From positions 1 through 20,334 of the IMG/VR virus record IMGVR_UViG_3300044491_001259: 20,334 bases of DNA, one strand, 5' to 3'. A program made the translations under genes and the position numbers. The stretch's first letter is position 1, and each line of letters begins with the position of its first letter. Below, one piece after another: positions 690 through 19,313 of the stretch. The notes under the pieces are model-generated. The model was given only the letters and a program-made list of their open reading frames with translations. It made no database searches and had not been told where the DNA came from. The DNA is from a virus.

Positions 690-690
690 A

Positions 691-4200: not shown

Positions 4201-7200
4201 AGAGCGAACTTGGACCTACTATCTACGCATTCTCTAAGGTAAAAGAGCTTGCCATCTTGGCAATGCGTAACTGGAAGACTGGTGATGGAACTGGTCCTGT
4301 ATACACACCTGTTTACTCTGGCACTTCTCTGTTCACTGATTCTACAATCTTAGTTGATGGCACTACACCAATTTGTGCTGGTGTTGAAAGTGCTATCAAC
4401 ACTGAAATGGAACTTCTAGAAGATATTCTGGATGGAACAATCATTGCTGGTGCCACTACCAGAACATATGGAACTTTATATAATACCGATTCTATTATCA
4501 GTTATCCAGATTCAACAATCTACGATGCTGATAATAAGAGAGTAACTCCAAGAGCAGATTTCGATGACTTCCCAATCATTGAGGCATCACCATACACTCA
4601 AAACTCTTCTGTTATCTCTTTCCTAGGCGGCGGTGGTGCTCTAGTTGATGGTTCCAAGGTCAAGAAACCCAACTGCCCCTTCCCTGGTCTAGAACTAGAC
4701 GGTTCGGCAACATTCCCCAATCAGGGTAAGTCGATGGTTGCCTCGGCATTCACGATCGTATCCTTTGGCGGCACTGGATATAAGGTTATCAACGATGGTT
4801 ATACTCAGTTGGTTTCGGTCTTCGTTATCTTCTGTGAAGATGGTGTACTTGCTGAGTCTGGTGGTTATTGTTCTATTACCAACTCCGCTACAAACTTTGG
4901 TACATTTGCTCTCCGTGGTACAGGATTTAGAGAGGAAGCATATACATTTGACGTTGGTACAATTACTAATGTCTCAACTACTCCAACAGGAAGAACTATC
5001 TTTACTGTCGATGGACTTGGCAGAGAACCACTAGAGCACTATGTCGTCAAGATTGATGGATATAGCAACGCAAATCCAAACATTGAGTATTTTGTTGAGA
5101 GTATCTCTGGAGTAACAGTTGGACCTCCTTTCTCAGCACAACTAACAATTGATGATGGACAAGGAAACTCTGGTGCTTTTCTTGAAAACTCTACTGGAAA
5201 TGCGGTATCCACAAACACCGCAACATTCTCTGGTAAAACTTTAAAACTACACAGACCTTCTATTGTTAACTCTTCTTCCCACACCTGGGAATTTGCTGGT
5301 TCTGGTACTAACTACAATGCTCTACCTGAGAACGGTGGCACTAAGATTGAAGCAAATGAGCAAGTATCTGAAAACTACGGTCGTGTATATGTCTCTGGTA
5401 CTGACGAACTAGGTGACTTTAAAGTTGGTACGTTTGCTAGAATTGAAAACAGAACTGGTGCTATTACCTTCACAGGTACGGTTACTATTTCGGAAGTTGA
5501 ATTCTTGAAACTGAAGGGTGGCGACGTTGTTGTTACTGGATTCTCTGCTGATAATACACTTGGTGGCGCTCAGTCTACAGATTCACAACTACCAACTCAA
5601 AAGGCAGTTAGAGACTACATCACTAACAACCTTGGACCTTACATCAACAAACCATACTCAACGAACGCTGTTCCTAGAGCACTGGTCGAACTTACCGATT
5701 CTGGTAAGATCTCGGTTGATCAAATCCCAGCACTCAGACCTTTCCAAGTCTACACTGTTGCTGACCAGGCAGCAAGAACTTCTATCGAAGGAGCACTTGC
5801 TGGAGACATCGCGATTCAACAGGATACATCAACATCGTTCATTCTTAATGATGATAATGATAGTTTGTTTTTGGCATTTGGTGTTGATACAAATTTAGCA
5901 TTTACCATTGGAGATATCTTTACTGGAGATACAACTGGTGGTCAAATCCAATCAACAGAATATAGAGAAGGTGTTTTATATCAGATTAACCTAACTTCTG
6001 GTGGTTCTGGATACACTACTCCACCCACAGTTACTATTTCTGGTGGTAATCCACAAGCAGGAGCAGTTCAAGCTGCCGCTACAACTACTATTGCTAATGG
6101 TCAAGTTGTTACAATTACTATTGTAGACTTTAATGGATACCTTGGCGGTAAAGGATATACTACAGTTCCTACTATCACAATTAGTGGTGATGGAAATGGT
6201 GCTACGGCAACTGGTTTTATTGAGAGCAGACTGTATGGCGATATTGTAAACCAAGTCAAGATTGTAAATACTGATGATATTGAAGACAGCACTGCTGCTC
6301 CAAATACAAACACTGTTGATCTAAGCAGAGTTGTTAATACTTCTTCGTTCGATAATGCTAACTGGGTATCTCTATCATCTAATCAGGTTGCTGCTTCTGA
6401 CATTACATCTGGTGTTATTGAGACAGATAGACTTGCAACGGGTGGTGCTGCTAACTCGTTCACTTTCTTGCGTGGTGACCAAAACTTCGCATTAGCAGTT
6501 CAGTCTATCAAGGGTGCTGAGACAAGATACTTTGCTATCCTTAATGCTCAGGCAAACAATGGAAGTGATCAAATGATCTTCCCGACCAATGGCGATATGC
6601 TCGTTGGTCATGATGTAGTTGCTAATGTAACTGGTATTCAAGCAAACACCACGATTACAAATATTATTTCCGCCGCTGGACAGACTACTATTACATTAAG
6701 TAATGCCTTAACAGCAGATATTACTTCTGGAAGTGTAATTCAATTCGGTAGGGGTGCCTCTCCTCTGCTTCTAGAATCAACATATACTCAAGGTAACTTC
6801 ATTGACGACGTTATTATTGTCAATGGCGGATCTGGATTTACAAACGGTCAATTCTTTGATGTTGGTTTATCTGGTGGTGCTGGAACTGGTTGTAGAGCAA
6901 ACCTTATTGTTTCTGGTGGTGCTGTAACTGATGTTGTTATAACAGACGGTGGTATTGGATACAATGCTGACTTTAATGTTACAAACGCACCAACAGAAAT
7001 TGGTGCTGGATCTTCTTTAGTCCTTGCTGCTAAAGTTTCTACTGTCAATAGACAGTATGCTAACACTTCGATTGACGTTCTAAGAGTCACCGCAAATACA
7101 ATTTCTGCAGATGACTTTGGTACAGTTGGTGTTGCTAGATTTGATAAGTCGCAATTTGATATTGGATTGCAGGGCAATGGTTCTGTAAGACTCAAGACTG

Positions 7201-9614
7201 GTGCTGACAGTGGTTTGGATGCCGACTTACTTGACGGTGCCCAAGGTTCTTTCTATCTAAACGCAGGAAACTTAAGTTCTGGCACACTACCAACAGACAG
7301 ACTTGCTGGTACGTACAATATCGCTATTTCTGGTCAGTCTGGTAATACTCTACGTTTGATTAGTGGTACTAGCAACCCAACATCAAATCCAGCGCCAAGT
7401 GCATTCGCTACTGGTGTTATTGCTGATACTAGAAATAACGCTGCAGATAGTTTGAATGATGGAGGTAGCAAGCATTTAACCTTGACCATCAGAAATGGTG
7501 GCGCTGGCACAGATGCTACTTTTGGTGGTGTAAGACAACTTGCATTTACTGATAATGATAACATGTGGATCCGTGGTTCTGGATCTGCGGTATCTACATT
7601 TGGTACATGGTATAAAGTCTTCCACTCGGGAAATGATGGTCCTGGAACAGAACTAGACGCTGACCGTTTAGATAATCGCCAAGGAGCATGGTATCAAAAT
7701 GCTCTGAATATCAACTACGGAACTCTTAGTAACAATCGTCTTCCAACATATCAGACTGCCAAAGACTTTAACAATGAGGTAAGAATCCTTACTACTACAA
7801 GTCAACAGAGAGTTGATATCTATATCATTGATCAAGTCCTTATAGCATCACCATTCTTGATTGGTCAAACAGTCAATCTTTATGAAATTGATGGTGTTAC
7901 ATCTCCTGCAACTTTATTAATTACAAATGTTGTAACTAATGTAGATGCAAATGATACTTTCAATAACTACACTATTATTAGTGGAACTTTATCTAGTGGC
8001 AACCCAGGCAATGCTGTTAAGATTGGTACTGCTAGCAATCAAATATTCTTCCAAGATTACACCATTAATGATGGAGGAACGTTTGAAACTGCATCACTAC
8101 AAAGTGATTCAGGAACAGCACGTTTAGTTCTTGGAAGATTTGATGGCATTGCATCTAATCCAACTCTTGACTTTAAGTCAAGCACCTTATCTGCTTCTGA
8201 TTACAACGTCAGACTTGAAGCCTCTGGTGGTAGTGCTACAAATGGTAGTGGTTCTTTAAATGTAACTGTTGGAACTGCCAATGACTTTAAAGTCAACAAT
8301 AACATTATTTGGAACGCAGGTAATATTACATTCCAGTCTTCTAATGTAGCAAGCACTGGTGTCATTCGTGATGCTTCTGGTAACTTCTCTGCTGGCACAA
8401 TCACTGCTGCAATTACGGGTGCTTCTTCACTCAACGTATTGAAGTCAGGAGATACCATGACAGGTACTCTAACCTTAACTGGTGGTTCTTCTAATCTGAT
8501 TGTTGGCGGCACAGGTGGATTTACTGGTGCTGTTAGTATGAGTAACAATCTAAATGTTGATAGTGGAACTCTCTTTGTAGATGCAACCAAAAATTCTGTT
8601 GGATTTGGTACTACAGCACCAGCAAATGATACACCAATTCACATTTATAAGAGTGGGGTATCATCAGGATCTACTCCAGTAATGCTGAGAATGGAAACTA
8701 CAAGATCTGATTTTGGGTCTGATCCAGGTGGTTGCTCTATTTTATTCAAAAACCAAGATGGCAACAATAGCGTCAACGAAGGTTACATTCAGGCACTTAC
8801 TGTAAATGATACTGACTTTGGCGATAATGACGAAGCAAATACCAGTTTCGTCTTTAGAATGACAAATGGAGGATCTCTCCGTGATAATGTAATCTTTACT
8901 GGCGATGGACGTGTTGGCATCAATACGATGAATCCAGGAACTTATGAATTGAATGTCGTCGGTCAGACATATCTAAGCAATACTCTCACAGTAAAAACTT
9001 CCATTACTATAAATGATGCTTCTGGTAATACAGGTGCTCCAATTATCTTTGCTGGTGCTTCTGGATATAAGAATTTCAGAATTGGTAACCAAGTAGCTGG
9101 CAATAATCTATTTGAAATTACACCATCTACTGCTAATGGTGGAACTACATTCACACTAGCAACTGTTGCTGGTCTCTTGATGGATGGTAGTGGCAACACT
9201 GCTATCGGTAAGACATCCGTTGATGCTACTTACAAACTTGAAGTCGCTGGTAACATCAACTTTACTGGAACACTCTATCAGAATGGAGCTCCATTTGTTA
9301 CTTCTCGTTGGACTGAAACTGCCAACAATACTGATATTTACAGAGGAACTAAGGTTGGTATCAACAAACCAAATAATAGTAATCTAACTTATTCTTTAGA
9401 TGTTACTGGCACTGTTGGAATGACTGGCATTCTATATGCCAACGGTGATAAGCAGTGGTTAGATACTTACGGTGTATTCAAAGCAAATAGAAATACTATC
9501 TCTCAAGATGTAACAGTTCCATCGAATACAAATGCTATGACTGCTGGACCTATCACTATAAATAATGGATATACGATCACTATTGCAGACGGATCTTCTT
9601 GGAGTATCATATAA
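1248..9614 (+). CDS. Giant mosaic tail-fibre / virion-structural protein (2788 aa)
   Basis: One uninterrupted frame of 2788 codons; the ATG at 1248 follows GGGAG. Visible modules in order: a short N-terminal region; a GGxGY...PxVTI repeat pair (about 60-148); a carbohydrate-binding-like segment (about 202-245, GAYRYFNGNIYEA with a G-T-PTHTGG tail) and a second (about 518-570); the fibre signature DRSNAVATTEYV, then a beta-helix-like start GSDDNDG near 298-325; two tandem copies around KCKRDIG (about 740-1065); a Gly/Cys-containing core (about 1124-1235); LPTQKAVRDYI near 1447; two more GGxGY-type regions; LDGAQGSFY and LDNRQGAWY fibre repeats (about 1990 and 2140); LKSGDTMTG near 2398; and C-terminal VGI/GNTAIG-type repeats. 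This is a giant structural protein, probably a long fibre or a baseplate-attached host-contact protein. No S74 autoprotease tail follows the VGI repeats. Exact assembly role unknown. Confidence 0.85.
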   Translation: MSFKFNSDRERIHGDNTRIVGTNETTFRIGSAASEQEVLRIQVDPVNNLPRIGVNRTGRKLETITVNTNQGGSGYTVVPDVTISAPDLSDGVQALASAIISNGSVIAIVVDNAGDGYTSPPTVTISGGNGAGAQATSKLDTVDFELDVNGAIRTSTSIISDTAKVLNLDIENLITADADFRAPYLKTFANGTGVVWVPNVILQKGAYRYFNGNIYEALNTGQTGTTGPTHTGGIAINGDVQFDHIGYRINDPNQAHYGITGDSGVFPRAVTPQLGDRSNAVATTEYVLNLATNDVGGRIYVSQQIGSDDNDGRSAVNPVRTIKKAAQLAWSTPGVKETLIVSGGDYVEDNPISLPPDCSIVGDNLRLVIIRPANPRKHMVKFGDKNYLIGVTFRDAIDSAGDPVHTWDFAMVFDDKQRIYYDSTTGGDFERSFPIGHQIFGLPKIRVSFQSNTGLSNLVNGLRVRGVNTGSVADINDVSFTTTTGANAYTSGNIDADIVSGSFNTGETFQYGGVGVLEWEASTAYTLGQIVWANDYVYTVTAAGTTATGAPNHSSGTATNGTVDLEYLRDAYEFVSTDIRSIRAEGEVVSVDEDLTTTLPITRINFALQGTTDVVTGGYQSSQFGNAEDLGGIVFYTNALVGRQNTHNFKAGQEIVISGLPTSNPDLSALNGKQRIYKVFEDADGRARRFVIPKKFPSITDSNLDPGQFATVSSFEKSITVSLLNSPNKFSMATPTDRRYQDACLLIRNNIDFIADESYLRLVSEFPNLVVPGGPDKCKRDIGHFINSIVRDLQFGSNYNVIESAEYYIQGTQIGYVDTEIIETVRAFEYARELIIYAMRNWRTANGLVSDPIYTPQYSSEARYFDDTVITTTAGNPACDDVRAAIDSLAYLFVDVLANNASGTVLDGAYLIARNETFIAEEALGLAEAQYPSLGLSVDDQTKCKRDIGYILEGLIRDLVLGGNAGIVNAAEFYFTGAELTGIPQSELGPTIYAFSKVKELAILAMRNWKTGDGTGPVYTPVYSGTSLFTDSTILVDGTTPICAGVESAINTEMELLEDILDGTIIAGATTRTYGTLYNTDSIISYPDSTIYDADNKRVTPRADFDDFPIIEASPYTQNSSVISFLGGGGALVDGSKVKKPNCPFPGLELDGSATFPNQGKSMVASAFTIVSFGGTGYKVINDGYTQLVSVFVIFCEDGVLAESGGYCSITNSATNFGTFALRGTGFREEAYTFDVGTITNVSTTPTGRTIFTVDGLGREPLEHYVVKIDGYSNANPNIEYFVESISGVTVGPPFSAQLTIDDGQGNSGAFLENSTGNAVSTNTATFSGKTLKLHRPSIVNSSSHTWEFAGSGTNYNALPENGGTKIEANEQVSENYGRVYVSGTDELGDFKVGTFARIENRTGAITFTGTVTISEVEFLKLKGGDVVVTGFSADNTLGGAQSTDSQLPTQKAVRDYITNNLGPYINKPYSTNAVPRALVELTDSGKISVDQIPALRPFQVYTVADQAARTSIEGALAGDIAIQQDTSTSFILNDDNDSLFLAFGVDTNLAFTIGDIFTGDTTGGQIQSTEYREGVLYQINLTSGGSGYTTPPTVTISGGNPQAGAVQAAATTTIANGQVVTITIVDFNGYLGGKGYTTVPTITISGDGNGATATGFIESRLYGDIVNQVKIVNTDDIEDSTAAPNTNTVDLSRVVNTSSFDNANWVSLSSNQVAASDITSGVIETDRLATGGAANSFTFLRGDQNFALAVQSIKGAETRYFAILNAQANNGSDQMIFPTNGDMLVGHDVVANVTGIQANTTITNIISAAGQTTITLSNALTADITSGSVIQFGRGASPLLLESTYTQGNFIDDVIIVNGGSGFTNGQFFDVGLSGGAGTGCRANLIVSGGAVTDVVITDGGIGYNADFNVTNAPTEIGAGSSLVLAAKVSTVNRQYANTSIDVLRVTANTISADDFGTVGVARFDKSQFDIGLQGNGSVRLKTGADSGLDADLLDGAQGSFYLNAGNLSSGTLPTDRLAGTYNIAISGQSGNTLRLISGTSNPTSNPAPSAFATGVIADTRNNAADSLNDGGSKHLTLTIRNGGAGTDATFGGVRQLAFTDNDNMWIRGSGSAVSTFGTWYKVFHSGNDGPGTELDADRLDNRQGAWYQNALNINYGTLSNNRLPTYQTAKDFNNEVRILTTTSQQRVDIYIIDQVLIASPFLIGQTVNLYEIDGVTSPATLLITNVVTNVDANDTFNNYTIISGTLSSGNPGNAVKIGTASNQIFFQDYTINDGGTFETASLQSDSGTARLVLGRFDGIASNPTLDFKSSTLSASDYNVRLEASGGSATNGSGSLNVTVGTANDFKVNNNIIWNAGNITFQSSNVASTGVIRDASGNFSAGTITAAITGASSLNVLKSGDTMTGTLTLTGGSSNLIVGGTGGFTGAVSMSNNLNVDSGTLFVDATKNSVGFGTTAPANDTPIHIYKSGVSSGSTPVMLRMETTRSDFGSDPGGCSILFKNQDGNNSVNEGYIQALTVNDTDFGDNDEANTSFVFRMTNGGSLRDNVIFTGDGRVGINTMNPGTYELNVVGQTYLSNTLTVKTSITINDASGNTGAPIIFAGASGYKNFRIGNQVAGNNLFEITPSTANGGTTFTLATVAGLLMDGSGNTAIGKTSVDATYKLEVAGNINFTGTLYQNGAPFVTSRWTETANNTDIYRGTKVGINKPNNSNLTYSLDVTGTVGMTGILYANGDKQWLDTYGVFKANRNTISQDVTVPSNTNAMTAGPITINNGYTITIADGSSWSII
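1430..1660 (+). repeat. GGxGY...PxVTI repeat pair 1 (giant protein N-terminus)
   Basis: Two protein repeats in the giant fibre: GGSGYTVVPDVTI, then AGDGYTSPPTVTISGG about 40 residues later, each followed by a Gly/Ala stretch. The same module recurs at 5971-6231, more divergently at 6805-7000, and inside gp14 at 17610-17810. Similar repeats are common in marine phage structural proteins; their function is not known to me. Confidence 0.7.
3465..4440 (+). repeat. Internal tandem duplication of about 160 residues in the giant protein
   Basis: Two divergent copies lie side by side, roughly 3465-3960 and 3970-4440. Both contain, in order, an Arg-Asn rich helix-like lead (IRNNIDFIA / IARNETFIA), KCKRDIG, IxxLIRDLxxGxN-like text, AEYY or AEFYF plus G, a KELAI-like helix, AMRNW, YTPxYS, and a terminal xCxxVxxAI. 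The conserved Cys, Arg, Asp and Trp positions suggest a folded, helix-containing domain set within an otherwise beta-rich fibre. Confidence 0.75.
5971..6231 (+). repeat. GGxGY...PxVTI repeat pair 2 (middle of giant protein)
   Basis: Contains GGSGYTTPPTVTISGG and GGKGYTTVPTITISGDG about 45 residues apart. At DNA level, 6018-6038 is identical over 21 bases to 17665-17685 inside gp14. Confidence 0.7.
6805..7000 (+). repeat. Divergent GGxGF/GGxGY repeat 3 (giant protein)
   Basis: Two looser copies: NGGSGFTNGQFFDVGLSGG, then DGGIGYNADFNVT after a Gly/Ala stretch. They keep the spacing and Gly-Gly-x-Gly-aromatic core of the other modules but have lost the PxVTI half. Confidence 0.5.
9557..9564 (+). 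promoter_or_regulatory. Late-promoter-like box TATAAATA at the end of the giant gene
   Basis: This is an exact match to the T4 late promoter core. It lies inside the last codons of the giant gene, about 50 bases before the ATG at 9615. It could drive the fibre gene cluster, but the octamer is not rare in AT-rich DNA. Confidence 0.4.
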
Positions 9615-10652
9615 ATGAGTATTCTTTCAGTTCACGACATCCAAGGCTTTTCTGCCTACAGCAACACAGTAAGAGTTCCTACTGGTCATACATTAAATGT
9701 AATTGGAGCTCTTACTGTTGATAATAAACTAAAAATTCCTACATGGGACGAAGCAACCAAACCAACTACCAATTTAGAAATTGGCATGATGGGTTGGAAT
9801 ACTGAGACTACTTCCATCGAAATTTATAATGGTGATGATGATGATGGAGAACCAATATGGTTATCTTCATCTGGAACTGGTGGTCCTAGCGGTGCTTTTC
9901 CAGATACTTATCAACAACTAATAAATGATTTTAGTGGAGCAAAATATTATGTAGATCCATCTGGAAGTAATGGAAATAATGGGTCCGAATCTTCACCATG
10001 GCAATCAATCAATCATGCCACGTTAAACGCTCCAACTGGTAGTATGATTGTGGTAAATCCAGGAACATATCAACAATCAGCTCCTATGTATGCTCCACAA
10101 GGAGCAAAAATTTACTGGGATCATGCCAAAAATTTGCAAGTTATTTGTGCTCCTGGACAAGTAAAATTGATCGGTTCATCTACAGATCCTGGAACTAGAG
10201 ATTTACATCATATAATTCAAACAAACTCTGCCTCCAAGTTATATGGTTGCATAATTTACAGAAATAATAATGCAAGAACAAGTAACTATAGTAATGCGGT
10301 TTTTGGATATCCAACTCCTTCAGCAAACACTGGAGAAGTTTATAATACATTCTTTAGAGAAACTGGAACAAATGGTAACTGGTCTTTGCATTATGACAAC
10401 CCAAATAATCATTCATGGAAAGCATATAATTCATCATTTATGGGATCTACATGGCAATCAAACTACACAGGAGGAAGCAGCACAACATGCACAAACTGTG
10501 CTGGCAGTGGATCTTGGGTAAGCAGCGGAACTAATACTTCTGCTCTGACAAGTGCAACTTATAATTCTGATTTTACTTGCCAGAGTCCTACTCAAGGGGT
10601 ATATTCTGGAACATATGCTTGGGATCCAGATACAGTAACGCAAACACTATAA
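9615..10652 (+). CDS. Tail-fibre/adhesin protein with beta-helix-like distal domain (345 aa)
   Basis: The ATG directly follows the giant gene's stop (9612-9614); GGAG at 9601-9604 is a plausible ribosome-binding site. Residues about 30-85 hold a module shared with three genes downstream: a hydrophobic lead, LKIPTW, KPTT, GMMGWNT, then EIYNG and a Trp-containing end. From residue 111, YYVDPSGSNGNNGSESSPW with the following SINHA is the typical opening of DUF1565/pectate-lyase-like parallel beta-helix proteins, and VVNPGTY fits a first helix rung. The end (GVYSGTYAWDPD) is nearly the same as the end of the gene at 13631, so the two are paralogues across their length. A TCTNC Cys pair sits near residue 294. 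Likely a minor fibre or receptor-contact protein; any enzymatic activity is unproven. Confidence 0.75.
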   Translation: MSILSVHDIQGFSAYSNTVRVPTGHTLNVIGALTVDNKLKIPTWDEATKPTTNLEIGMMGWNTETTSIEIYNGDDDDGEPIWLSSSGTGGPSGAFPDTYQQLINDFSGAKYYVDPSGSNGNNGSESSPWQSINHATLNAPTGSMIVVNPGTYQQSAPMYAPQGAKIYWDHAKNLQVICAPGQVKLIGSSTDPGTRDLHHIIQTNSASKLYGCIIYRNNNARTSNYSNAVFGYPTPSANTGEVYNTFFRETGTNGNWSLHYDNPNNHSWKAYNSSFMGSTWQSNYTGGSSTTCTNCAGSGSWVSSGTNTSALTSATYNSDFTCQSPTQGVYSGTYAWDPDTVTQTL

Positions 10653-10665
10653 TGTAAAAAAAATC

Positions 10666-11361
10666 ATGAATCTTTATAATTTAGATGAAATTTTTGCGGT
10701 AAATAATCAGATTGACTGCGAATTGATAAAAGAAAAGTGGGGAATTTATGTTAGAGTAAAAAATTTCTGGAAAAATCCAGATAAAGTTAGAGAGTTATTT
10801 TTCTCAACTCCATGCACTGGATTGCCTGGAGCATGTTATCAAAATGAAAATGGAAAAAAATATTTTGATGGTAGGAATATGATTCCTTTTATGAATCCTC
10901 AAAAATTCTCAGATGTGGTTTTTTATATTATCCATAAATACTTAGAGATCGATACTCAACATATCGAACTAAAGTGGAAAACGCCAACATTATTATTTGG
11001 AAACGTTTTTCAAATGTATGATAAAAAATTCAATACATACGGTACTCACTATTATGCTCCACATACAGACGGAGTAGATCAAATAGCATGTACTTGGTAT
11101 ATGAATAAAAATTATGATGAAGGAGACGGAACTTCAATATATGATAAGACAATAACAGAAACTGAAGAGTGCATGTTGAATATGATAGATTCTCCATGGA
11201 CAAATTCTGTCAACAAAATTGGACATATTCCAGCAGAATACAATAGCTTGGTAATCTATAGTGGAGATATCTCACATGGACAAGCAGTAACAAAAAGATG
11301 GTTTGAAGAAAAAAGATTGACGTTAGTACAGTTTTATAACGATAAAAGAATTTTCAAATAA
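10666..11361 (+). CDS. Putative 2OG-Fe(II) oxygenase, HxD...H...R type (231 aa)
   Basis: The product carries the full iron and co-substrate signature of the 2-oxoglutarate/Fe(II) oxygenase superfamily: H133-x-D135 (within APHTDGVDQ), a distal H204 (GDISHGQAV), and R217 thirteen residues later (EKRLTLVQFY), as expected for 2OG carboxylate binding. The arrangement resembles phage and bacterial proteins annotated DUF6445; that family assignment is from memory. Substrate is unknown. Such enzymes usually hydroxylate proteins, nucleic acids or small molecules in the cytoplasm. The ATG at 10666 lacks an obvious Shine-Dalgarno sequence and follows the upstream gene by 13 bases. It is the first of three AT-rich genes inserted between fibre paralogues, so fibre modification is an attractive but unproven role. 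Confidence 0.7.
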   Translation: MNLYNLDEIFAVNNQIDCELIKEKWGIYVRVKNFWKNPDKVRELFFSTPCTGLPGACYQNENGKKYFDGRNMIPFMNPQKFSDVVFYIIHKYLEIDTQHIELKWKTPTLLFGNVFQMYDKKFNTYGTHYYAPHTDGVDQIACTWYMNKNYDEGDGTSIYDKTITETEECMLNMIDSPWTNSVNKIGHIPAEYNSLVIYSGDISHGQAVTKRWFEEKRLTLVQFYNDKRIFK

Positions 11362-11366
11362 TTATT

Positions 11367-12032
11367 ATGACAATTGAAGTGAATTGGTGTCGCCTTACGG
11401 CAGATGCTACTTATCCATACATACACCACAAAGCAGATGGAAAATATCCTCTGATGTTTGATCCAGAGGAGGTGGTGTATCCAAACACTAAAGCAAGATA
11501 TCATGCATGTCCTTCGTTTGGATCTGTTCAGCAGTATGTTATAAGGTCTCCGTTTTATGGATCATTTTCATTCAATAAAAATGGAATAAATTTTGAAAAC
11601 TCTCCACACTTACAACAATTAGTAAGACCATCAGATGAAGATCCGTATACTTTATCAAATCCATACTTTCAATTTAATGTTACATATTTGTTCTGGTCTG
11701 AGCAAGAATGTTATTTGTGGGTAGAAGATTGTCCAGAACAATATAATGAACAGTATCGAGAATGGTTTATACTAAAAGGTATGATTCCAGTGCATGAAAT
11801 ATACAGACCAGTTCATCCAGCGATAGTGATGAAATCCTTCAATTCAAAATTTTCAATTGAAAGGGGATCTCCTTTATATGGCATTACACTTTTTAGTCCA
11901 AAAGGTAGAATAAAATTAGTTGAAAAAGAACCCTCTGATAATATTTTATCTAAAAGTATAAGCAGCACCAAAGCAATTACATTTTGTCCATATAAATGGT
12001 CAAAATCTCTATTCAAAAAATGGTATAAGTAA
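11367..12032 (+). CDS. Unrecognised protein between two oxygenases (221 aa)
   Basis: The ATG at 11367 is five bases after the previous stop, with no clear ribosome-binding site. I do not recognise the family. The 221 residues are rich in Tyr, Trp, Phe and Pro (for example SPFYGSFSF, TYLFWSEQECYLWVEDC, PVHEIYRPVHPAIV), with no membrane segment or signal peptide, and a basic end (KSLFKKWYK). The density of aromatic residues and the FSIERGSPLYGITLF segment suggest a compact globular cytoplasmic protein, not a fibre. It lies in a three-gene set with two putative 2OG-Fe(II) oxygenases and shares their A-rich composition, so it may act with them as partner, substrate adaptor or second enzyme. This is inference from position only. 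Confidence 0.6.
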   Translation: MTIEVNWCRLTADATYPYIHHKADGKYPLMFDPEEVVYPNTKARYHACPSFGSVQQYVIRSPFYGSFSFNKNGINFENSPHLQQLVRPSDEDPYTLSNPYFQFNVTYLFWSEQECYLWVEDCPEQYNEQYREWFILKGMIPVHEIYRPVHPAIVMKSFNSKFSIERGSPLYGITLFSPKGRIKLVEKEPSDNILSKSISSTKAITFCPYKWSKSLFKKWYK

Positions 12033-12049
12033 ACAACCGAGGAATCATA

Positions 12050-12682
12050 ATGTCTATATCGATAAAAAATATCCCAGCATTTCCAGTTTATATTCATGAA
12101 GTTAAAGACTTACTAAAACCAGAGCATGTAGAATCTCTCAAACAAACTTGCGATAACTTAGAATATATTGATAGCAATAATGGATTGTATCAATCTCAAG
12201 ATAGCTATTTGCAAAATGACGAGAGATTCAAAAAGATTACTTTGTACATAAGATCTGTTCTTAGAACTATAAAAATAGCAGAACTATATGATGCGGATGA
12301 TTTCGAAATTTCTCAGATGTGGGTAAATAGGGCAAGAAAAAATGCATGTCATGAGCAACACTGGCATTCGAATTCTTTTTTTAGTGGAATATTTTATCTG
12401 ACAGAAGGATCTCCAACGGTATTTTATGATCCTGTAATAGGAAGGCAAATGTCCTCTCTCAATGTATGGGCAGAAACAAATCAACCAGCAATAGTCTTAC
12501 CAGCAGAAGTTGGCACTTTACGAGTTTTTCCTTCATACTTTCAACACAAAACTCTCCCAAATGAAATGGACGAAGATAGAATTTCTATCAGTTTCAATTC
12601 AGTTCCAGTTGGAAAAGTAAATACTAGAAATCCATACACAAGACTGTCTGAACTTTCTATTTCAATTGCTGGTGATAAATAG
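12050..12682 (+). CDS. Putative 2OG-Fe(II) oxygenase, PF13759/TIGR02466-like (210 aa)
   Basis: A strong ribosome-binding site, GAGGAA at 12039-12044, sits five bases before the ATG at 12050. The protein matches the pattern I know for the PF13759 (2OG-FeII_Oxy_5) family: MWVNRA, then HWHSNSFFSGIFYL (H104, H106), FYDP, then GTLRVFPSYFQHKTLPNE (H166), and the closing DRISISFN (R177). H166 would be the distal iron ligand and R177 the 2OG-binding Arg. The acidic residue of a classical HxD is not evident at the first site, so the exact metal ligands are uncertain. It belongs to a different family from the oxygenase at 10666, so the two are unlikely to be recent duplicates. Members are common in marine cyanophages, but their substrates are unknown to me. 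Confidence 0.8.
   Translation: MSISIKNIPAFPVYIHEVKDLLKPEHVESLKQTCDNLEYIDSNNGLYQSQDSYLQNDERFKKITLYIRSVLRTIKIAELYDADDFEISQMWVNRARKNACHEQHWHSNSFFSGIFYLTEGSPTVFYDPVIGRQMSSLNVWAETNQPAIVLPAEVGTLRVFPSYFQHKTLPNEMDEDRISISFNSVPVGKVNTRNPYTRLSELSISIAGDK
12674..12681 (+). promoter_or_regulatory. Late-promoter-like box GATAAATA before the LamG-type fibre gene
   Basis: GATAAATA overlaps the stop of the oxygenase gene (TAG 12680-12682) and lies 31 bases before the ATG at 12713. It matches the NATAAATA form of the T4-type late box and would restart transcription after the oxygenase cassette. Confidence 0.45.
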
Positions 12683-12712
12683 ATCATAATGGAAAAAATC
12701 TAAGTAACTGTA

Positions 12713-13624
12713 ATGGCTAGTATACTAAAAGTAGATCAATTACAAAATGCTGCTGGTACTCCAGTTGTTCAATTTGATACCAACGGAAATGCAACATTTT
12801 CTGGTGGTGTGAGTAATAGTGGATATTTAAAGTTGCCATTATGGACTACAGAAACTAGACCATCAGTACCAGAAACTGGAATGATTGGTTACAACTCGTC
12901 AGAAGATGTTTTAACTGTAGAAATATACAACGGCGAAGAATGGATATTGATTGGATCCAGTGGAGCAAGTAAAGCATTACCAGCTGGATATAAAATTGCT
13001 ATGACATTTGAATCTTCAAATGGCGGATTGTTGCCAGCAAGTACATGGACAATTTCCAATATTGGAACTCCAGGAACTTATGTAAGTAGTGGTGGTGTCG
13101 ATAATTCTGGATACTTTAGCGATTCTGGACGTTCAGTAAATACTAATTATTTTAGAATTTCAGAAATGCCAATTACTGGTACAACTACTGACTTGACTTT
13201 CTGTATCTGGTATAAGGGAACTCAGAATGTTTCTCCACAAACGTATGGTCCTGCAGTTGGTTTGTTCGGTGATACTAGAGGATCTGTTTATGGTGGTTAT
13301 GGAATTAGTAGTGGCAAGTGTGAATTTAGAGATTCTGGAAACGCATACCAAGGACCAAATGTAAATACTGGAAACTGGGTACATATCGCATTTTCTATGA
13401 CTACTGGGAAAACGCTGAAGATATATGTAAATGGATCACTGACAAATACTTACAACAGTGTTTCTGTGACTACTGCATATACAAGATGTAGTGATATTGG
13501 AGCTCATTATCCTTACGGTGGATATGTTGCTCCATCTGCTATTGATTGTCCCGTTGTTTATGACCGTATTCTTTCTGATGCAGAAGTTTTACAGGTTTAT
13601 GAAGCAGGTCAATTCACAGAGTAA
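12713..13624 (+). CDS. Tail-fibre/adhesin protein with LamG-like domain (303 aa)
   Basis: The start MASILKVDQLQNAAGTP is a common N-terminus of phage tail-fibre proteins (KVDxxQNxAGT). Residues about 36-80 carry the module shared with the fibre genes at 9615, 13631 and 14762 (LKLPLW, TRPSVPETGMIGYN, VEIYNGEEW). From about residue 95 to the end the protein looks like a concanavalin A/laminin-G-like sandwich: MTFESS, FCIWYKG, the hallmark GNWVHIAFSM, KIYVNGSL, and the closing VVYDRILSDAEVLQVYEAG. Such domains often bind sugars, which suits recognition of host surface polysaccharide. It is the first fibre gene after the oxygenase cassette and ends six bases before the next fibre gene. Carbohydrate binding is inferred from the fold. 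Confidence 0.8.
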   Translation: MASILKVDQLQNAAGTPVVQFDTNGNATFSGGVSNSGYLKLPLWTTETRPSVPETGMIGYNSSEDVLTVEIYNGEEWILIGSSGASKALPAGYKIAMTFESSNGGLLPASTWTISNIGTPGTYVSSGGVDNSGYFSDSGRSVNTNYFRISEMPITGTTTDLTFCIWYKGTQNVSPQTYGPAVGLFGDTRGSVYGGYGISSGKCEFRDSGNAYQGPNVNTGNWVHIAFSMTTGKTLKIYVNGSLTNTYNSVSVTTAYTRCSDIGAHYPYGGYVAPSAIDCPVVYDRILSDAEVLQVYEAGQFTE

Positions 13625-13630
13625 ATACCA

Positions 13631-14683
13631 ATGTCTAGTATTATAGTTGGAACTCCAAAACCATGGAAAGGAATTAAAGTAGCTAATTTTGTTACTGCTA
13701 CAAGACCAGCATCACCATCTACGGGATTGATGATTTACAACACAGAAACAGAGCAAGTTGAGTGTTGGAATGGTACAGAATGGTTTGAAGTAGGAGTTAT
13801 TCCACCTCCCCCTCCACCACCAGATCTTCCTACTGCATACAAAACACTTGTTGATGCTGCTGAGTCTGCGGGAACATTGTTGTATGTTGATAGTGCCACT
13901 GGCAGTGATGGAAATACTGGTGGAACATATGATACTGCTTTGGGTTCCTTATCAAAAGCAGTAGAGTTAGCATCAAATGGATATACAATTTATGTGATGC
14001 CAGGAAGACATATTAATATGGACAACAGTTATTTGAAAACTGGAAGATCATATGGTCATGGTCATCTAGATGACTATGGAAAACAAATAACATTTATTGG
14101 TTATCCTGGAAGAACTATTATTGGAGACGAAGACCCATATGGATGTACTAATGGAGCAGACAGTTATTGCGGTAATGCTTCATATGGTCCATATTGTGGT
14201 GGTATGATTAATGCCAATAGTAAAGCAATTGGATTTATTGTAGAAAGAAACAGACCAGGAAATACTAATGCTGTTGCTGGACAAGCGATGTTCTCACAAG
14301 ACGCTGGTGGTTATACATCACCAACTGGTCTGAGAGGAGAATATTTGAATTGTGTATTCAGAAACATCACAAATGTTGCTGGCGATGGATCATACAATAA
14401 TGGAACTACATATGCTTTTAAGTTCAATAATGGTATTTTTGAAGCTCCATTCACAGGAAATAACTATGCAACAGGAAATAGCGGATCTACTATGGCAGCA
14501 GTTGGTTACACTAGATATGCTTTCCCGACAAGTGGTATGGGTTCAATATCACAACAATCGGTAACTCTTGACGCACAGTGGAAATCTTCTAACACCTCAT
14601 ATGGTGTTTATGTTGGTACATATGCTTGGGATGAAACTATGGTTCTTCCGTATCCTGGCGCAACTTCACCAACGACATATTAG
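13631..14683 (+). CDS. Tail-fibre/adhesin protein with polyproline hinge and beta-helix-like domain (350 aa)
   Basis: Residues about 16-55 carry the shared fibre module (VTATRPASPSTGLMIYN, then VECWNGTEWFEVG). A run of seven prolines (58-64) forms an apparent rigid hinge. Residues from about 84 (LYVDSATGSDGNTGG, then YTIYVMPGRH) open a parallel beta-helix-like domain similar to that of the gene at 9615, and the ends match (GVYVGTYAWDE versus GVYSGTYAWDP). The middle has a Cys-rich patch (GCTNGADSYCGNASYGPYCGG) absent from the paralogue. It starts six bases after the LamG-type gene. Its likely role is a receptor-contact fibre tip; enzymatic activity is not shown. The proline run is also a conceivable substrate for a hydroxylase, given the neighbouring oxygenases; this is speculation. 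Confidence 0.75.
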   Translation: MSSIIVGTPKPWKGIKVANFVTATRPASPSTGLMIYNTETEQVECWNGTEWFEVGVIPPPPPPPDLPTAYKTLVDAAESAGTLLYVDSATGSDGNTGGTYDTALGSLSKAVELASNGYTIYVMPGRHINMDNSYLKTGRSYGHGHLDDYGKQITFIGYPGRTIIGDEDPYGCTNGADSYCGNASYGPYCGGMINANSKAIGFIVERNRPGNTNAVAGQAMFSQDAGGYTSPTGLRGEYLNCVFRNITNVAGDGSYNNGTTYAFKFNNGIFEAPFTGNNYATGNSGSTMAAVGYTRYAFPTSGMGSISQQSVTLDAQWKSSNTSYGVYVGTYAWDETMVLPYPGATSPTTY

Positions 14684-14761
14684 GACTCTGATGGTAGCGG
14701 TGGCTGAAATATATAATAGAACAGAAAGCTTCTAATAAATACAAATAAACGAGTATAGAAG
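14684..14761. other. Longest non-coding gap in the window (78 bases)
   Basis: This gap lies between two fibre genes. It holds a late-promoter-like box (14734-14741) and a weak GAAG element just before the ATG at 14762. I see no terminator hairpin and no RNA gene. Confidence 0.5.
14734..14741 (+). promoter_or_regulatory. Late-promoter-like box AATAAATA before the glycine-rich adhesin
   Basis: AATAAATA fits the NATAAATA form of the T4-type late promoter core. It lies 20 bases before the ATG at 14762, in the only sizeable gap of the fibre cluster. Confidence 0.5.
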
Positions 14762-15886
14762 ATGTCATCTCTAAATGTTGGAAGTATCATAACTTCTGTT
14801 GGAGTTCAGTTACCAGTATATACTAACACTTCAAGACCAACGACTGTACCTGTTGGTTTTATGATATTCAATTCCGAGATTGGAGATGTTGAAATTTATG
14901 GTAGCACTGGTTGGAAACCAGTAGGTAAAGGTGCTTTTGGAACAGAGTTTTCTATTACTACTGCTTTACAAGGCGGATCTGGAGTTGGTAGTTACAATCT
15001 ATCAAATGGTGCAGTTCAATTCCTATCATCTGGATATTATGTAATGCAAACTCCAACATCTATGAAAATTAAAGTCCAAATGTGGGGAGCAGGCGGAGGA
15101 GGTGCTAACTCTGCTACACCAAACCGTGGATCTGCTGGTGGATATACAGAAGGAATTTTACAATTAGATGCTGGAAATTATACCTTTATTGTTGGTAAAG
15201 GTGGTCAAGGACTAGGAACTGGTAAAGTTGGTGGTTATCCAGATGGTGGTAATGGTGGCACTAGTGGAGCAAGCTCAGCTGCTGGTGGTGGATCTACAAG
15301 ATTTGGTCCAGAGGTATCAGAATCAAATAAGAACACTTCATCTACCGAATATTATTTGATTGCTGGTGGCGGTGGAGGAGGATGTAACTGGGCATACACT
15401 AGCGAAGTAAATGCCACTGATGGCGGTGGAGAAGGTGGTGGTACTACTGGTGGTCGTGGATCATATCACTATCTAAATTATGAAAATCTTTACACTTTAG
15501 GATTGGGTGGAACTCAAACTGCTGGAGGTGCTGGTGGAGGAACTTATAACTCTAGTGTTGTTGGTCGTTTAGGAAACGGTAATAACGGAGATAAGTATCA
15601 GGGAGGATCTGGCACTGGCGGCGGTGGCGGTGGCGGTTACTATGGCGGTGGCGGTGCTAGAGGTTACTATTCATCTGGTGGTGGTGGATCAGGATATGTA
15701 TCAAATACTTCTGTAGTTGAGAGTGGAACCAGTTATAGAGGTGGTACTGGATTTGGTTTACAATATTATCAAGCTGGAGCTCCAGCAGGAGTTACTGTTC
15801 CTTCTGGCGCTGGAGCTGGCGGAACAAATAGTGGCGGAAATGGTGGTGCTGGTGCTATAATTTTCAGTGATGCTACCAACTTATAA
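14762..15886 (+). CDS. Glycine-rich tail-fibre adhesin (374 aa)
   Basis: Residues about 10-55 carry the shared fibre module (VQLPVY, SRPTTVPVGFMIFN, VEIYGSTGWKPVG). From about residue 88 the protein follows the pattern of glycine-rich phage adhesin domains: a strand lead (GYYVMQTPTSMKIKVQMWGAGGG), GGYTEGILQLDAGNYTFIVG, GKGGQG, repeated Gly runs including seven in a row near 286-292, and AGAIIF at the end. Such polyglycine domains form the receptor-binding tip of gp38-type adhesins in some T-even phages; the resemblance here is compositional, not proven homology. It is the last fibre gene before the neck block and has its own promoter-like box, so it may be expressed at a different level from its paralogues. 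A role as exchangeable host-range determinant is inferred. Confidence 0.78.
   Translation: MSSLNVGSIITSVGVQLPVYTNTSRPTTVPVGFMIFNSEIGDVEIYGSTGWKPVGKGAFGTEFSITTALQGGSGVGSYNLSNGAVQFLSSGYYVMQTPTSMKIKVQMWGAGGGGANSATPNRGSAGGYTEGILQLDAGNYTFIVGKGGQGLGTGKVGGYPDGGNGGTSGASSAAGGGSTRFGPEVSESNKNTSSTEYYLIAGGGGGGCNWAYTSEVNATDGGGEGGGTTGGRGSYHYLNYENLYTLGLGGTQTAGGAGGGTYNSSVVGRLGNGNNGDKYQGGSGTGGGGGGGYYGGGGARGYYSSGGGGSGYVSNTSVVESGTSYRGGTGFGLQYYQAGAPAGVTVPSGAGAGGTNSGGNGGAGAIIFSDATNL
15617..15637 (+). repeat. GGC/GGT simple-sequence tract in the adhesin gene
   Basis: Seven consecutive Gly codons are written as GGC GGC GGT GGC GGT GGC GGT, giving a 6-base repeat in otherwise AT-rich DNA where most Gly codons are GGT or GGA. 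A similar shorter run follows at 15644-15655. In-frame slippage or recombination here would change loop length without breaking the frame. Confidence 0.7.
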
Positions 15887-15889
15887 ATA
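15882..15889 (+). promoter_or_regulatory. Late-promoter-like box TATAAATA before the coiled-coil gene
   Basis: This is an exact T4 late promoter core overlapping the adhesin stop codon (TAA 15884-15886) and 29 bases before the ATG at 15919. It is the best promoter candidate in the window by sequence and position. Confidence 0.55.
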
Positions 15890-15918
15890 GCAACAAACAC
15901 AATTTACATGTGATTACT

Positions 15919-16107
15919 ATGGATCCCACAGCACTAAAGAAAAACTTTGAAGAGCAAATTGCCACTACCGAAAAGCAAATTGCTGAACTAGAAGAAAACT
16001 TAACTAAAGCAAAAGAATATAAGATCAAACTACAAGGTGGTTTAGAAACACTAGGTCTTCTCGAAGGTGAACCTGAAGCAGCAGAAGAAGAAACACCCAC
16101 TGAATAA
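15919..16107 (+). CDS. Small coiled-coil protein upstream of gp13 (62 aa)
   Basis: The ATG at 15919 is preferred; an in-frame GTG at 15910 would add three residues, and neither has a clear Shine-Dalgarno sequence. The 62-residue product is highly charged. Residues about 5-40 show heptad-like spacing of Leu, Ile and Ala (FEEQIATTEKQIAELEENL), predicting one long coiled coil. The last 15 residues are acidic and probably disordered (EGEPEAAEEETPTE). No membrane segment is visible. It stands alone between a late-promoter-like box and a strong terminator, so it may be made as a separate short transcript. Function unknown; small coiled-coil proteins at this site could be scaffold, chaperone or minor virion components. 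Confidence 0.65.
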   Translation: MDPTALKKNFEEQIATTEKQIAELEENLTKAKEYKIKLQGGLETLGLLEGEPEAAEEETPTE

Positions 16108-16112
16108 CTACC

Positions 16113-16147
16113 AAATCCCTTCTTCCTAAATAGGTAAGAAGGGATTT
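16113..16147 (+). terminator. Rho-independent terminator after the coiled-coil gene
   Basis: A perfect 12-bp inverted repeat (16113-16124 with 16136-16147) is extended at the apex by CCTA/TAGG with one bulged base, and the right arm runs into TTTTTT (16145-16150). The core AATCCCTTCTT pairs with AAGAAGGGATT. It begins five bases after the stop of the coiled-coil gene. Confidence 0.88.
16126..16132 (+). promoter_or_regulatory. Late-promoter-like box CTAAATA in the apex of the terminator hairpin
   Basis: CTAAATA sits at the tip of the terminator stem, 25 bases before the gp13 ATG at 16158. If it acts as a T4-type late -10 element, the transcript would start within the right arm of the stem, so it would not itself carry the terminator. 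Confidence 0.5.
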
Positions 16148-16157
16148 TTTGTGTGTA

Positions 16158-16958
16158 ATGGCATCTCCAAGTTCAAGAGCTGATCTTATCACATACTGTA
16201 AGAGGCAGCTTGGTGAGCCTGTCCTCCAAGTTAATATTGACGACGAGCAGGTCAATAACGTTATTGATGACACGTTCCAGTTCTTTCAGGAGAACTGCTA
16301 CAACGGAATGGAAAGATGTTATCTTACCCACTCATTAACTGAATCTGACATTACTAGATTTAAAGCTACTGTAACAACTACAACTAATGGATCAGATTGG
16401 AATGAAGCAACAAACTACATTCCGATCCCACCTCATGTAACTGGCATCAGTAAAGTCTTTGGGTTAGTAAGTAACTCAATTCGTTCCAATCTCTTTGGTG
16501 TTGAATATCAACTATATCTAAATGATCTATATGCATTTGGATCACTTGATATCCTCAATTATTTTATGACTAAACAATATCTAGAAACTCTAGATATGGT
16601 TCTGAACAACGGTTCATTCCAGCAGTTCAGATTTACAGCACGTCGTGATCGTTTATATCTTGACGTAGATGCTGATTTCTTAGCAACAGATAAGTATTTG
16701 CTAATTGAGGCACATAGGATGATTGATCCTACAGATGCCACAGAAATGAATAATGATCCGTTTGTCAAAAAATATGCTACTGCTCTTATGAAGAAGCAGT
16801 GGGGTCAGAACTTGATTAAGTATAACAATGTTCAGTTGCCTGGTGGTATCACCCTCAACGGAAGAGAGTTATACACAGACGCACTAGCAGAAATTGAGAA
16901 AATCGAAAGCGAAGTTCTCAGTAAGTATGCAATTCCACCTATGGATATGATCGGATAA
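16158..16958 (+). CDS. gp13: Neck protein gp13
   Basis: The 266-residue protein beginning MASPSSRADLITYCKRQLGEP matches T4-like phage gp13, a head-completion/neck protein that joins the portal to the tail after DNA packaging. Recognisable features are the N-terminal helix, VNIDDEQVNNVIDDTFQFFQE, PPHVTGISKVFG, the aromatic LYLNDLYAFGSLDILNYF, and LIEAHRMIDPTDATEMNND. An upstream in-frame TTG at 16149 exists but lies in the terminator T-run, so the ATG at 16158 is the better start. The purine-rich AAGAAGGG of the hairpin right arm lies 14 bases from the ATG, farther than usual for a ribosome-binding site. gp14 begins one base after the stop, as expected for genes whose products assemble together. 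Confidence 0.9.
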   Translation: MASPSSRADLITYCKRQLGEPVLQVNIDDEQVNNVIDDTFQFFQENCYNGMERCYLTHSLTESDITRFKATVTTTTNGSDWNEATNYIPIPPHVTGISKVFGLVSNSIRSNLFGVEYQLYLNDLYAFGSLDILNYFMTKQYLETLDMVLNNGSFQQFRFTARRDRLYLDVDADFLATDKYLLIEAHRMIDPTDATEMNNDPFVKKYATALMKKQWGQNLIKYNNVQLPGGITLNGRELYTDALAEIEKIESEVLSKYAIPPMDMIG

Positions 16959-16959
16959 G

Positions 16960-18084
16960 ATGCCTACCAGTCCCTATTTTCCAACTTACTATTCAGGTCA
17001 CAGTGGCGAACAAGGTCTCGTTCAGGATCTTGTGGATGAGCAAATCAAACTGTTTGGTTCAGATATATACTATATCCCTAGAGTAGTTCTACAAGATAGC
17101 ACGCTGGATGAAGTTAGATACTCTAAGTATCAAGAACAATTCCAGATTGAAATGCTACTGCAGAACGTCATGGGTTTTGGTGACAATGCAGAGTTCATCT
17201 CCAAGTTCGGTTTAAGAATTACAGATGAAATTATTTTCCGTGTGTCTACAAGACGCTGGGATGAAGAGGTAGCAGAACATAACCCAAACCTCACGCTTAC
17301 TAGTAGACCTAATGAGGGGGACTTATTGTACTTCCCATTAACAAAAGATATTTACGAAATTAAATTTGTTGGCAAGGAAGAACCATTCTTCCAATTTGGT
17401 AAGATTCAATTTTATGCCATTACCGCTGAGATCTACGAAATCGGTAGTGATGACTTTGATACTGGAGTTGAAGAGATTGATGATGTTGAGATAGCATTTG
17501 CTAATACTATCAAACTCTTCATGGATCCTGGTGGATCTGGAGACTTTACTGTTGGAGAAGAGATTGTTGGTGATGAGTTCCTAGCGAAAGCAACAGGAAC
17601 AACTGATGGTGATGCTGTTGATAGTATTACTATTACAGATGGCGGATCACATTATAAACAAGCAACTCCACCCACAGTTACTATTACTGGAGGAGGTGGA
17701 ACAGGTGCTACAGCAACTGCTGCAGTTAGTTCTACAGGTCTTGTTAATAGTATCTTGATTACATCTGGTGGAACTGGATATACTAGTGCTCCTACTGTCA
17801 CTATTGACTACTCACCTAAGGACAATAGAGCAGAAGTTAAGTCTTGGGATAATACAACCAGAGCTCTGGAAGTATACAATAGAACAGGAACCTTTACTAC
17901 TGCTGAAGTAATTACTGGTCTAACTTCAGGTGCCAAGTGGAGTCCAGAGACATTTGACACTCTAAATAATACCAACAGCAACTACGATCAGAATAGACAG
18001 ATCGAAGATTCTGGTGATGAGATTATCGATTGGACAGAAGGTAATCCATTCGGTGAGTATGGTAACTTTACGGATAGCATCTAA
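16960..18084 (+). CDS. gp14: Neck protein gp14, with inserted repeat module
   Basis: The start MPTSPYFPTYYSGHSGEQGLVQDLVDEQIKLFG-type text (beginning MPTSPYFPTYYSGH) and the conserved DIYYIPR, GFGDNAEFISKFGLRITDE, and GDLLYFPLTKDIYEIKFV identify gp14, the second neck/head-completion protein. It partners gp13 (one base upstream) and contacts the tail terminator gp15. At 374 residues it is clearly longer than T4 gp14 (about 256). Much of the excess is a segment at about residues 211-288 carrying two GGxGY-type repeats (DGGSHYKQATPPTVTITGG and GGTGYTSAPTVTIDY). This splits a stretch that otherwise reads VGEEIVG ... AEVKSWDNTTRALEVYN. The stop overlaps the gp15 start by one base (TAATG), suggesting translational coupling. 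Confidence 0.9.
   Translation: MPTSPYFPTYYSGHSGEQGLVQDLVDEQIKLFGSDIYYIPRVVLQDSTLDEVRYSKYQEQFQIEMLLQNVMGFGDNAEFISKFGLRITDEIIFRVSTRRWDEEVAEHNPNLTLTSRPNEGDLLYFPLTKDIYEIKFVGKEEPFFQFGKIQFYAITAEIYEIGSDDFDTGVEEIDDVEIAFANTIKLFMDPGGSGDFTVGEEIVGDEFLAKATGTTDGDAVDSITITDGGSHYKQATPPTVTITGGGGTGATATAAVSSTGLVNSILITSGGTGYTSAPTVTIDYSPKDNRAEVKSWDNTTRALEVYNRTGTFTTAEVITGLTSGAKWSPETFDTLNNTNSNYDQNRQIEDSGDEIIDWTEGNPFGEYGNFTDSI
17610..17810 (+). repeat. GGxGY...PxVTI repeat pair inside gp14
   Basis: Two repeats: DGGSHYKQATPPTVTITGGGG, then SGGTGYTSAPTVTIDY, about 40 residues apart with a Gly/Ala linker, as in the giant fibre protein. DNA 17665-17685 is identical over 21 bases to 6018-6038. Confidence 0.72.
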
Positions 18085-18884
18085 TGTTAGGATCACATTT
18101 TTATAATCAAATTGTTCGCAAGAACATTATTGCGTTTGGTACGCTCTTCAATAATATTACAATGAAGAGCACTGATCCTAGCAGTGGTGAAGTTTTAGAG
18201 GAGCAAAAAGTTCCTTTAGCATACGGACCCAAGCAGAAGTTTCTTGTTCGTTTAGAAGAGAATGCTGCTTCATCAAAAGTAGCGATCACATTGCCACGTC
18301 TCTATTTTGAGATGACAGGAATTGATTACGATTCTACCCGTAAGACATCACCAATTCAAAAATACAAAACCATCATTGATGGTAATGGCGGCGAAGTCAG
18401 AGTGCAATATGTTCCTGTTCCTTATAATTTAAGTTTTGAATTAGGAGTTATTGCTAAGTCTCAAGATGATGCACTGCAAATTGTAGAACAAATCCTACCA
18501 TACTTCCAACCATCATTCTCTGTTACTCTCAACATGATCCCTGACATGAATGAGAAACGTGATGTTGCTATTGTTCTCAATAACATCTCAGGAGAAGATG
18601 AGTGGGATGATAGTTTTTTAAACCGTAGGTATATCGCATATACTTTAAACTTTACCATGAAGTCTTATCTCTACGGTCCTTACAATACTGCTGACGTTAT
18701 CAAGAAAGCAATTATTCATGAAACTATTGGCGACCTTGCTGTTAACCGTAGGACAATTACAAGAACATACACACCCAAAGCAGTTACAGATATCAATACA
18801 GATGGTGTCATCGATGTAAATGATGACGCACTGGTAGATGCTGGTGATGATTTTGGATTTAATGAAGGAATTGAATTCTTATGA
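18084..18884 (+). CDS. gp15: Tail terminator / sheath stabiliser gp15
   Basis: The start MLGSHFYNQIVRKNIIAFGTLFNNI and the conserved SPIQKYKTIIDGNGGE, VQYVPVPYNLSFELGV, QIVEQILPYFQPSFSVTLN and YIAYTLNFTMKSYLYGP identify T4-like gp15. This protein caps the completed tail tube and sheath and docks the tail to the neck (gp13/gp14). Length (266) is close to T4 gp15 (272). The ATG overlaps the gp14 TAA by one base, and its own TGA overlaps the gp16 ATG by four bases (ATGA), so all three are probably translationally coupled. The C-terminus has an acidic DINTDGVIDVND stretch that resembles an EF-hand/dockerin-type calcium loop; it may be a local embellishment. Confidence 0.92.
   Translation: MLGSHFYNQIVRKNIIAFGTLFNNITMKSTDPSSGEVLEEQKVPLAYGPKQKFLVRLEENAASSKVAITLPRLYFEMTGIDYDSTRKTSPIQKYKTIIDGNGGEVRVQYVPVPYNLSFELGVIAKSQDDALQIVEQILPYFQPSFSVTLNMIPDMNEKRDVAIVLNNISGEDEWDDSFLNRRYIAYTLNFTMKSYLYGPYNTADVIKKAIIHETIGDLAVNRRTITRTYTPKAVTDINTDGVIDVNDDALVDAGDDFGFNEGIEFL
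18789..18824 (+). other. Calcium-loop-like motif at the gp15 C-terminus
   Basis: Residues 236-247 read DINTDGVIDVND, which fits the D-x-N-x-D-G-x-I-D-x-x-D pattern of EF-hand and dockerin loops. Further acidic residues follow (DALVDAGDD). Calcium binding is inferred, not shown. Confidence 0.55.
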
Positions 18885-19291: not shown

Positions 19292-19294
19292 ATA
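19287..19294 (+). promoter_or_regulatory. Late-promoter-like box GATAAATA after gp16
   Basis: GATAAATA overlaps the gp16 stop (TAA 19289-19291) and lies 19 bases before the ATG at 19314. It fits the NATAAATA form seen elsewhere in the window. Confidence 0.4.
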
Positions 19295-19313
19295 AAAAGA
19301 AAGTGTCGGAAAA

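Follow-up and report, generated by a model that had tools for sequence, protein, structure and literature searches.

Four genes lying between the giant tail fibre gene and gp13 in the viral DNA studied here (hereafter the window, the whole stretch of 20,334 bases) are, in our reading, accessory virion-fibre cassettes that are expressed together, that carry exchangeable tips and whose N-terminal blocks (N-blocks) are individual to each position in the array; we put the probability of this reading at roughly two in three. In each protein a short leader would be followed by a small module folded as a beta-meander and then by an exchangeable tip, which may be lectin-like, a beta-helix or rich in glycine. 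The four proteins would be produced at the same time late in infection and appear together on the virion, their N-blocks would be related by descent and specific to each array position, serving as separate addresses or necks, and their tips would move by recombination between N-blocks and between phages.

The window's genes, identified from PHROG and ORF matches and by comparison with annotated relatives, run in the order of a virion protein end, a phrog_5449 protein, the giant tail fibre, the slot that holds the four genes, a 65-aa ORF, gp13, gp14, gp15 and gp16 (Table 1). Near DNA matches to the window come from 49 phage records, every one of a Synechococcus or Prochlorococcus phage or a cyanophage, the family is Kyanoviridae wherever the opened records of relatives state one, and the gp13-gp14-gp15-gp16 series is collinear with that of Kyanoviridae (T4-like cyanophage) records. 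Judged by this gene content and order, the window is a Kyanoviridae-like fragment of a T4-like cyanophage, a virus of marine Synechococcus-type cyanobacteria.

Table 1. Features of the window and stand-alone module ORFs of related loci (L numbers); positions without a locus number are those of the window.
Feature	Position	Strand	Description
Window	1..20334		IMG/VR virus record IMGVR_UViG_3300044491_001259, positions 1 to 20,334
Giant tail fibre gene	1248..9614	+	2788 aa, phrog_5342; left slot border
TATAAATA, late-promoter-like	9557..9564	+	Inside 3' end of giant fibre gene, 57 nt before gene 1
Fibre gene 1	9615..10652	+	345 aa; 37-residue leader, module, DUF1565/beta-helix-type tip
Module of gene 1	9726..9860	+	Residues 38-82; profile match
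Three genes between fibre genes 1 and 2	10666..12682	+	2OG-Fe(II) oxygenase-like (phrog_1644), phrog_17480 protein, 2OG-Fe(II) oxygenase (PF13759)
ATAAATA, late-promoter-like	12675..12681	+	38 nt before gene 2
Fibre gene 2	12713..13624	+	303 aa; 36-residue leader, module, LamG/ConA-like tip (Laminin_G_3 E 2.9e-14)
Module of gene 2	12821..12955	+	Residues 37-81; profile match; borderline DUF7360
Fibre gene 3	13631..14683	+	350 aa; 13-residue leader, module, polyproline stretch, beta-helix-type tip
Module of gene 3	13670..13795	+	Residues 14-55; profile match, structure model
ATAAATA, late-promoter-like	14735..14741	+	27 nt before gene 4
Fibre gene 4	14762..15886	+	374 aa; 13-residue leader, module, glycine-rich tip (Pfam ALK_LTK_GRD E 1.1e-14)
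Module of gene 4	14801..14926	+	Residues 14-55; profile match
Conserved 65-aa ORF	15910..16107	+	Right slot border; followed by gp13 at 16149
Stand-alone module ORFs	L014:7486-7701, L016:1352-1567, L017:6896-7126, L019:7501-7716, L024:7598-7771		
Stand-alone module ORFs, continued	L033:7487-7705, L057:6909-7133, L077:6912-7136, L086:1862-2068		

An initial annotation of this DNA had proposed that the four genes, whose ORFs start exactly at the positions tabulated, have one N-terminal block in common, and this proposal stands. Profiles built from any three of the blocks recover the fourth (E 6.8e-11, 2.1e-13, 4e-10 and 4.9e-9), which is in each case the only further significant ORF in a six-frame translation of the window, the best chance match reaching E 0.12. 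An iterated profile, run over the window and 90 loci, matched 86 of 4139 ORFs, every one on the plus strand, and no reversed protein; the leave-one-out recovery and the specificity of the iterated profile together establish that the shared block is real. The common layout claimed for the block survives in part: a module of about 45 residues is indeed shared, but the leader ahead of it was incompletely described: genes 3 and 4 have a short one of about 13 residues, and genes 1 and 2 a long one of about 37. Genes 2 and 3 were modelled with AlphaFold2, and although overall confidence is low (mean pLDDT 58.8 and 62.0), the module regions score well (about 78-94 by ten-residue blocks); there both proteins are predicted to form a strand, a one-turn helix and a three-stranded meander; in other words, the two blocks modelled as single chains adopt the same predicted fold and not unrelated ones. 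As for named families, PF24059 (DUF7360, curated cut-off 27.6 bits) scores gene 2 at 26.6 and 29.4 bits in two runs and gene 3 at 13.6 and 17.2 bits, has no match in genes 1 and 4, and is matched by 7 of 49 modules; DUF7360 is an uncharacterised family, so the name conveys no function. The first ~90 positions of phrog_1325, a family of unknown function, match genes 1, 2 and 3 (E 8e-13, 4e-10 and 3e-9), the match stopping where the N-block ends and leaving the tips of the window outside it. A profile search of the PDB with the module returned only repeat artefacts, every stretch scoring under 5 bits.

Beyond the module, four unrelated distal domains had been described. The LamG-like tip of gene 2 and the glycine-rich tip of gene 4 bear this out, but gene 1 and gene 3 have homologous tips (BLASTP E 2e-13, 27% identity over 274 columns), with the C-terminus GVYxGTYAWD common to both, and there are thus three tip families and not four. 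This older relationship is the sole one between tips within the array of the window. When annotated phages were searched with tips only, those of genes 2, 3 and 4 found no relatives at E 1e-5, and that of gene 1 found a single match, the pectate lyase of Bacillus phage SP-15. Structural comparison, made with low-confidence AlphaFold2 models of the gene 2 and gene 3 tips, gave a resemblance of the gene 2 tip to jelly-roll lectin-like domains (Foldseek, E 2e-6); toxin binding domains were also among these matches and were set aside as ordinary resemblance within the jelly-roll superfamily. The gene 3 tip matched beta-helix proteins weakly in the PDB (E 4e-3) and, better, the pectate lyase of phage SP-15 among viral models (E 8e-7). 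Binding of glycans by such tips would fit the reading proposed here.

The slot that these genes occupy is a hotspot of variation. With gp13 as the anchor, 80 IMG/VR loci were collected. The 53 complete slots measure 1.4-9.8 kb between the giant fibre and gp13 and differ in their contents. Module genes number zero in 8, one in 5, two in 15, three in 5 and four in 2 of the 35 distinct complete slots, so that 27 of the 35 hold at least one and 22 at least two. The slot is without any gene in S-TIM4 and S-SM1, which makes the slot genes accessory. As a hypervariable island with fibre genes ahead of the neck genes, the slot corresponds to a host recognition cluster (HRC), the accessible text of PMC7029224 placing such a cluster at this position in pelagimyophages and cyanomyophages, and the earlier description of a fibre and host-recognition locus is borne out. 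The nearest relative, L010, has a slot largely collinear with that of the window, except that the gene 2 position is taken by a different module gene together with sulfotransferase-like and oxygenase-like genes, and that gene 3 has an extra C-terminal LamG domain which the window gene 3 does not have. About 720 bp of L010 (12100-12823, the LamG extension) are absent at window positions 14683-14761, with flanking DNA ~86% identical, and we read this difference as a natural loss or gain of a tip.

Tips have been exchanged in both directions; that is, a kept N-block is found with different tips, and the same tip is found on different N-blocks, as the idea of modular, exchanged tips had anticipated. 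For example, at the gene 1 position the window/L010 pair, L095 and L096 have the MSILSVxDxQG leader and the module in common, and the tips of these three are non-homologous. Conversely, L095, L096 and L097 all have the gene 2 tip, attached to N-blocks that have diverged, the one in L097 being about 40 residues longer. Within single arrays the pattern is sharper: in L056 and L059, the tips at positions 1 and 3 are 88% and 91% identical and the N-blocks 23% and 25%, whereas N-blocks at the same position of these two loci are 97-98% identical; at the border between N-block and tip, DNA identity climbs from ~0.4 to ~0.9. Two slot genes each of L027 and L040 likewise have tips that are 75% and 76% identical and N-blocks that are 24% and 22% identical. 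Tip data reject grouping by N-block position (AU p 0.005); N-block data favour grouping by position, the tip grouping not being rejected with the 72 columns available (AU p 0.108). At least one transfer of a tip between N-blocks is therefore well supported, and recurrent homogenisation of tips is likely but not proven. A further suggestion, which we offer tentatively, is that the N-blocks are position-specific virion addresses and that tips are homogenised across these addresses within one phage by concerted evolution. If so, the same tip would stand at several different places on one virion, and a specificity newly gained at one address could spread to others.

Do the four N-blocks instead dock on one and the same virion protein, so that the fibres are mixed at equivalent sites, as the initial annotation had it with its common adaptor? 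The blocks are homologous, have the same predicted fold and are N-terminal in short fibre proteins, as such an adaptor would have them. However, in the best-sampled lineage the N-blocks of one array are only 19-38% alike, as against 97-98% when one position is compared with its counterpart in a close relative, and this individuality makes separate addresses or necks more likely than copies competing for a single adaptor. The two leader lengths also speak against a shared dock, as do copies of the module elsewhere. Module matches outside the slot occur in all eight complete genomes searched: S-CAM4, ACG-2014e, S-WAM2 and S-PM2 have two copies of the module within a large structural protein of the virion, whose gene precedes that of the giant fibre (L091:11404-16509, L005:148-4641, L007:1782-5396 and L103:9180-12935), and other genomes have paired module matches in ORFs that resemble it in size and position. 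The window probably begins inside the same large gene, without its module-bearing part. Additionally, nine loci have stand-alone ORFs of 57-76 aa that comprise little beyond leader and module, with no tip, just 3' of the giant fibre gene (Table 1). These internal and stand-alone copies argue against the module as an exclusively N-terminal dock, and because of them the module may be structural filler rather than an address. We consider the single shared adaptor unlikely, and position-specific N-blocks remain our preferred account. Two further relatives of the module may be recorded here. In a 139-aa ORF (L097:6443-6862) the module is joined to a C-terminal segment that resembles the one in the window's giant fibre (E 4e-7 for the match to the giant). 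Additional cyanophage proteins emerged from structure comparison, with matches some 54 columns long and about 30% identical that we take to be the module. One of them, BFVD entry A0A1D7SXD8 of cyanophage S-RIM12, is named receptor protein-tyrosine kinase, probably an error that stems from the glycine-rich domain which ALK/LTK receptors also have.

The genes also have a recurrent expression signal. The late promoter reported for S-PM2, NATAAATA (PMC2984593), has ATAAATA as its core. Of 74 distinct module genes, 48 have this motif in the 70 bp ahead of the start codon, in most cases at a distance of 27-42 nt; shuffled upstream sequences predict about 3.4 (for 77 genes), and the antisense motif is found at none. 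Inside module genes ATAAATA appears twice in 74 kb, and it is missing upstream of gp14 (0/39), gp15 (0/36) and gp16 (0/35; 0/110 together). At the right slot border it precedes the 65-aa ORF in 32 of 49 cases and gp13 in 24 of 51, the window having a site at 15882-15889. Over the whole window neither TATAAATA nor ATAAATA is in excess, their counts being no more than chance; what carries information is only where the motif stands relative to gene starts when many loci are considered. With a motif ahead of genes 1, 2 and 4 and with gene 3 starting 6 nt behind gene 2, joint late production and display of the four proteins would be expected. A locus that stores alternative tips, one of the four being used at a time and the rest serving as spares swapped in by recombination or switching, had been put forward as another possibility; tips have clearly been exchanged over evolution, and the gene 2 cassette was swapped between L010 and the window. 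Such a store is nonetheless very unlikely given four complete frames with their own starts, a late promoter motif for each cassette, and three out of three S-PM2 array genes annotated as virion structural. An invertible, phase-variable arrangement was rejected, because window positions 9000-16400 contain no inverted repeats and all 86 module ORFs lie on the plus strand. The upstream motifs, the complete frames on one strand and the lack of inverted repeats in this region together favour simultaneous late expression.

Are the products parts of the virion? The slot of S-PM2 holds p092, p093 and p094, all of which have the module (E 1.3e-5, 1.3e-9 and 8.7e-6) and are annotated as virion structural protein, a label that was probably taken from the S-PM2 virion proteome, as the gene-cluster numbers of these proteins look specific to S-PM2. 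For S-CREM2, the virion mass spectrometry of PMC10665884 includes 6 peptides of gp126, a protein encoded in the slot whose module repeats are weak (E 4e-8 for the whole protein). The literature on S-SZBM1, S-SCSM1, S-N03/S-H34 and S-TIM4 did not provide a usable inventory of virion-borne slot proteins. The presence of the four window proteins in virions would be in keeping with the S-PM2 and S-CREM2 evidence, and the expectation that a single virion carries several tips gains from the late promoter motifs and the S-PM2 annotations, making co-display probable. One might suppose instead that these late-made proteins work inside the infected cell or on it, at its surface for instance, since the slot also contains genes unlike those of virion parts, namely 2OG oxygenases in the window and a sulfotransferase in L010; the location within the tail gene block, the module held in common with conserved virion proteins, the S-PM2 annotation and the S-CREM2 mass spectrometry leave this supposition scarcely credible. 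Virion fibres thus remain the preferred identity of the four products. The enzymes deserve mention in their own right: the window has 2OG-Fe(II) oxygenase genes among its fibre genes at 10666-11361 and 12050-12682, and L010 has an oxygenase gene and a sulfotransferase gene added amid fibre genes (9646-10428 and 10425-10997). Modification of fibres or of the host surface is a possible role for them.

Modular multi-fibre host-recognition loci are already known, and the slot itself is known as the HRC. The likeness to the HRC as set out in the accessible text of PMC7029224 is close, with the same neighbourhood (VrlC to the neck genes), hypervariability, and several tail fibre genes alongside unrelated enzymes; the difference is that the shared N-terminal module, the late promoter per fibre gene and the occurrence of one tip on different N-blocks go unreported in that text. 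In the searchable literature we did not find the combination of a small DUF7360-like block, a late promoter for each fibre and one tip on several blocks, which is weak evidence that this cassette logic is novel. The rule of late promoter, N-block and tip provides a sequence signature by which candidate accessory adhesins can be listed, and the presence of one tip on two N-blocks makes the idea of N-blocks as addresses, dictating where on the virion each fibre sits, directly testable.

In the gene order of T4, the short tail fibre gp12 and the fibritin wac come just before gp13, and the slot of the window lies at the same place. The likeness ends there, for a Pfam search (E 0.1) found no collar or fibritin domain in the four window proteins, which on that account are not classed with gp12 or wac. 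T4-like cyanophages are without recognisable homologues of T4 tail fibre genes including wac, g12, g34 and g37 (PMC2984593), and the slot cassettes bear on which proteins are candidates for fibre roles in these phages. The cassettes may also be likened, by description, to another arrangement. Multi-tailspike phages (Kuttervirus, Vi01-like) have several receptor-binding proteins whose N-terminal regions are related and whose distal parts differ; the window has the same plan of several proteins per phage, built on a much smaller block of ~45 aa.
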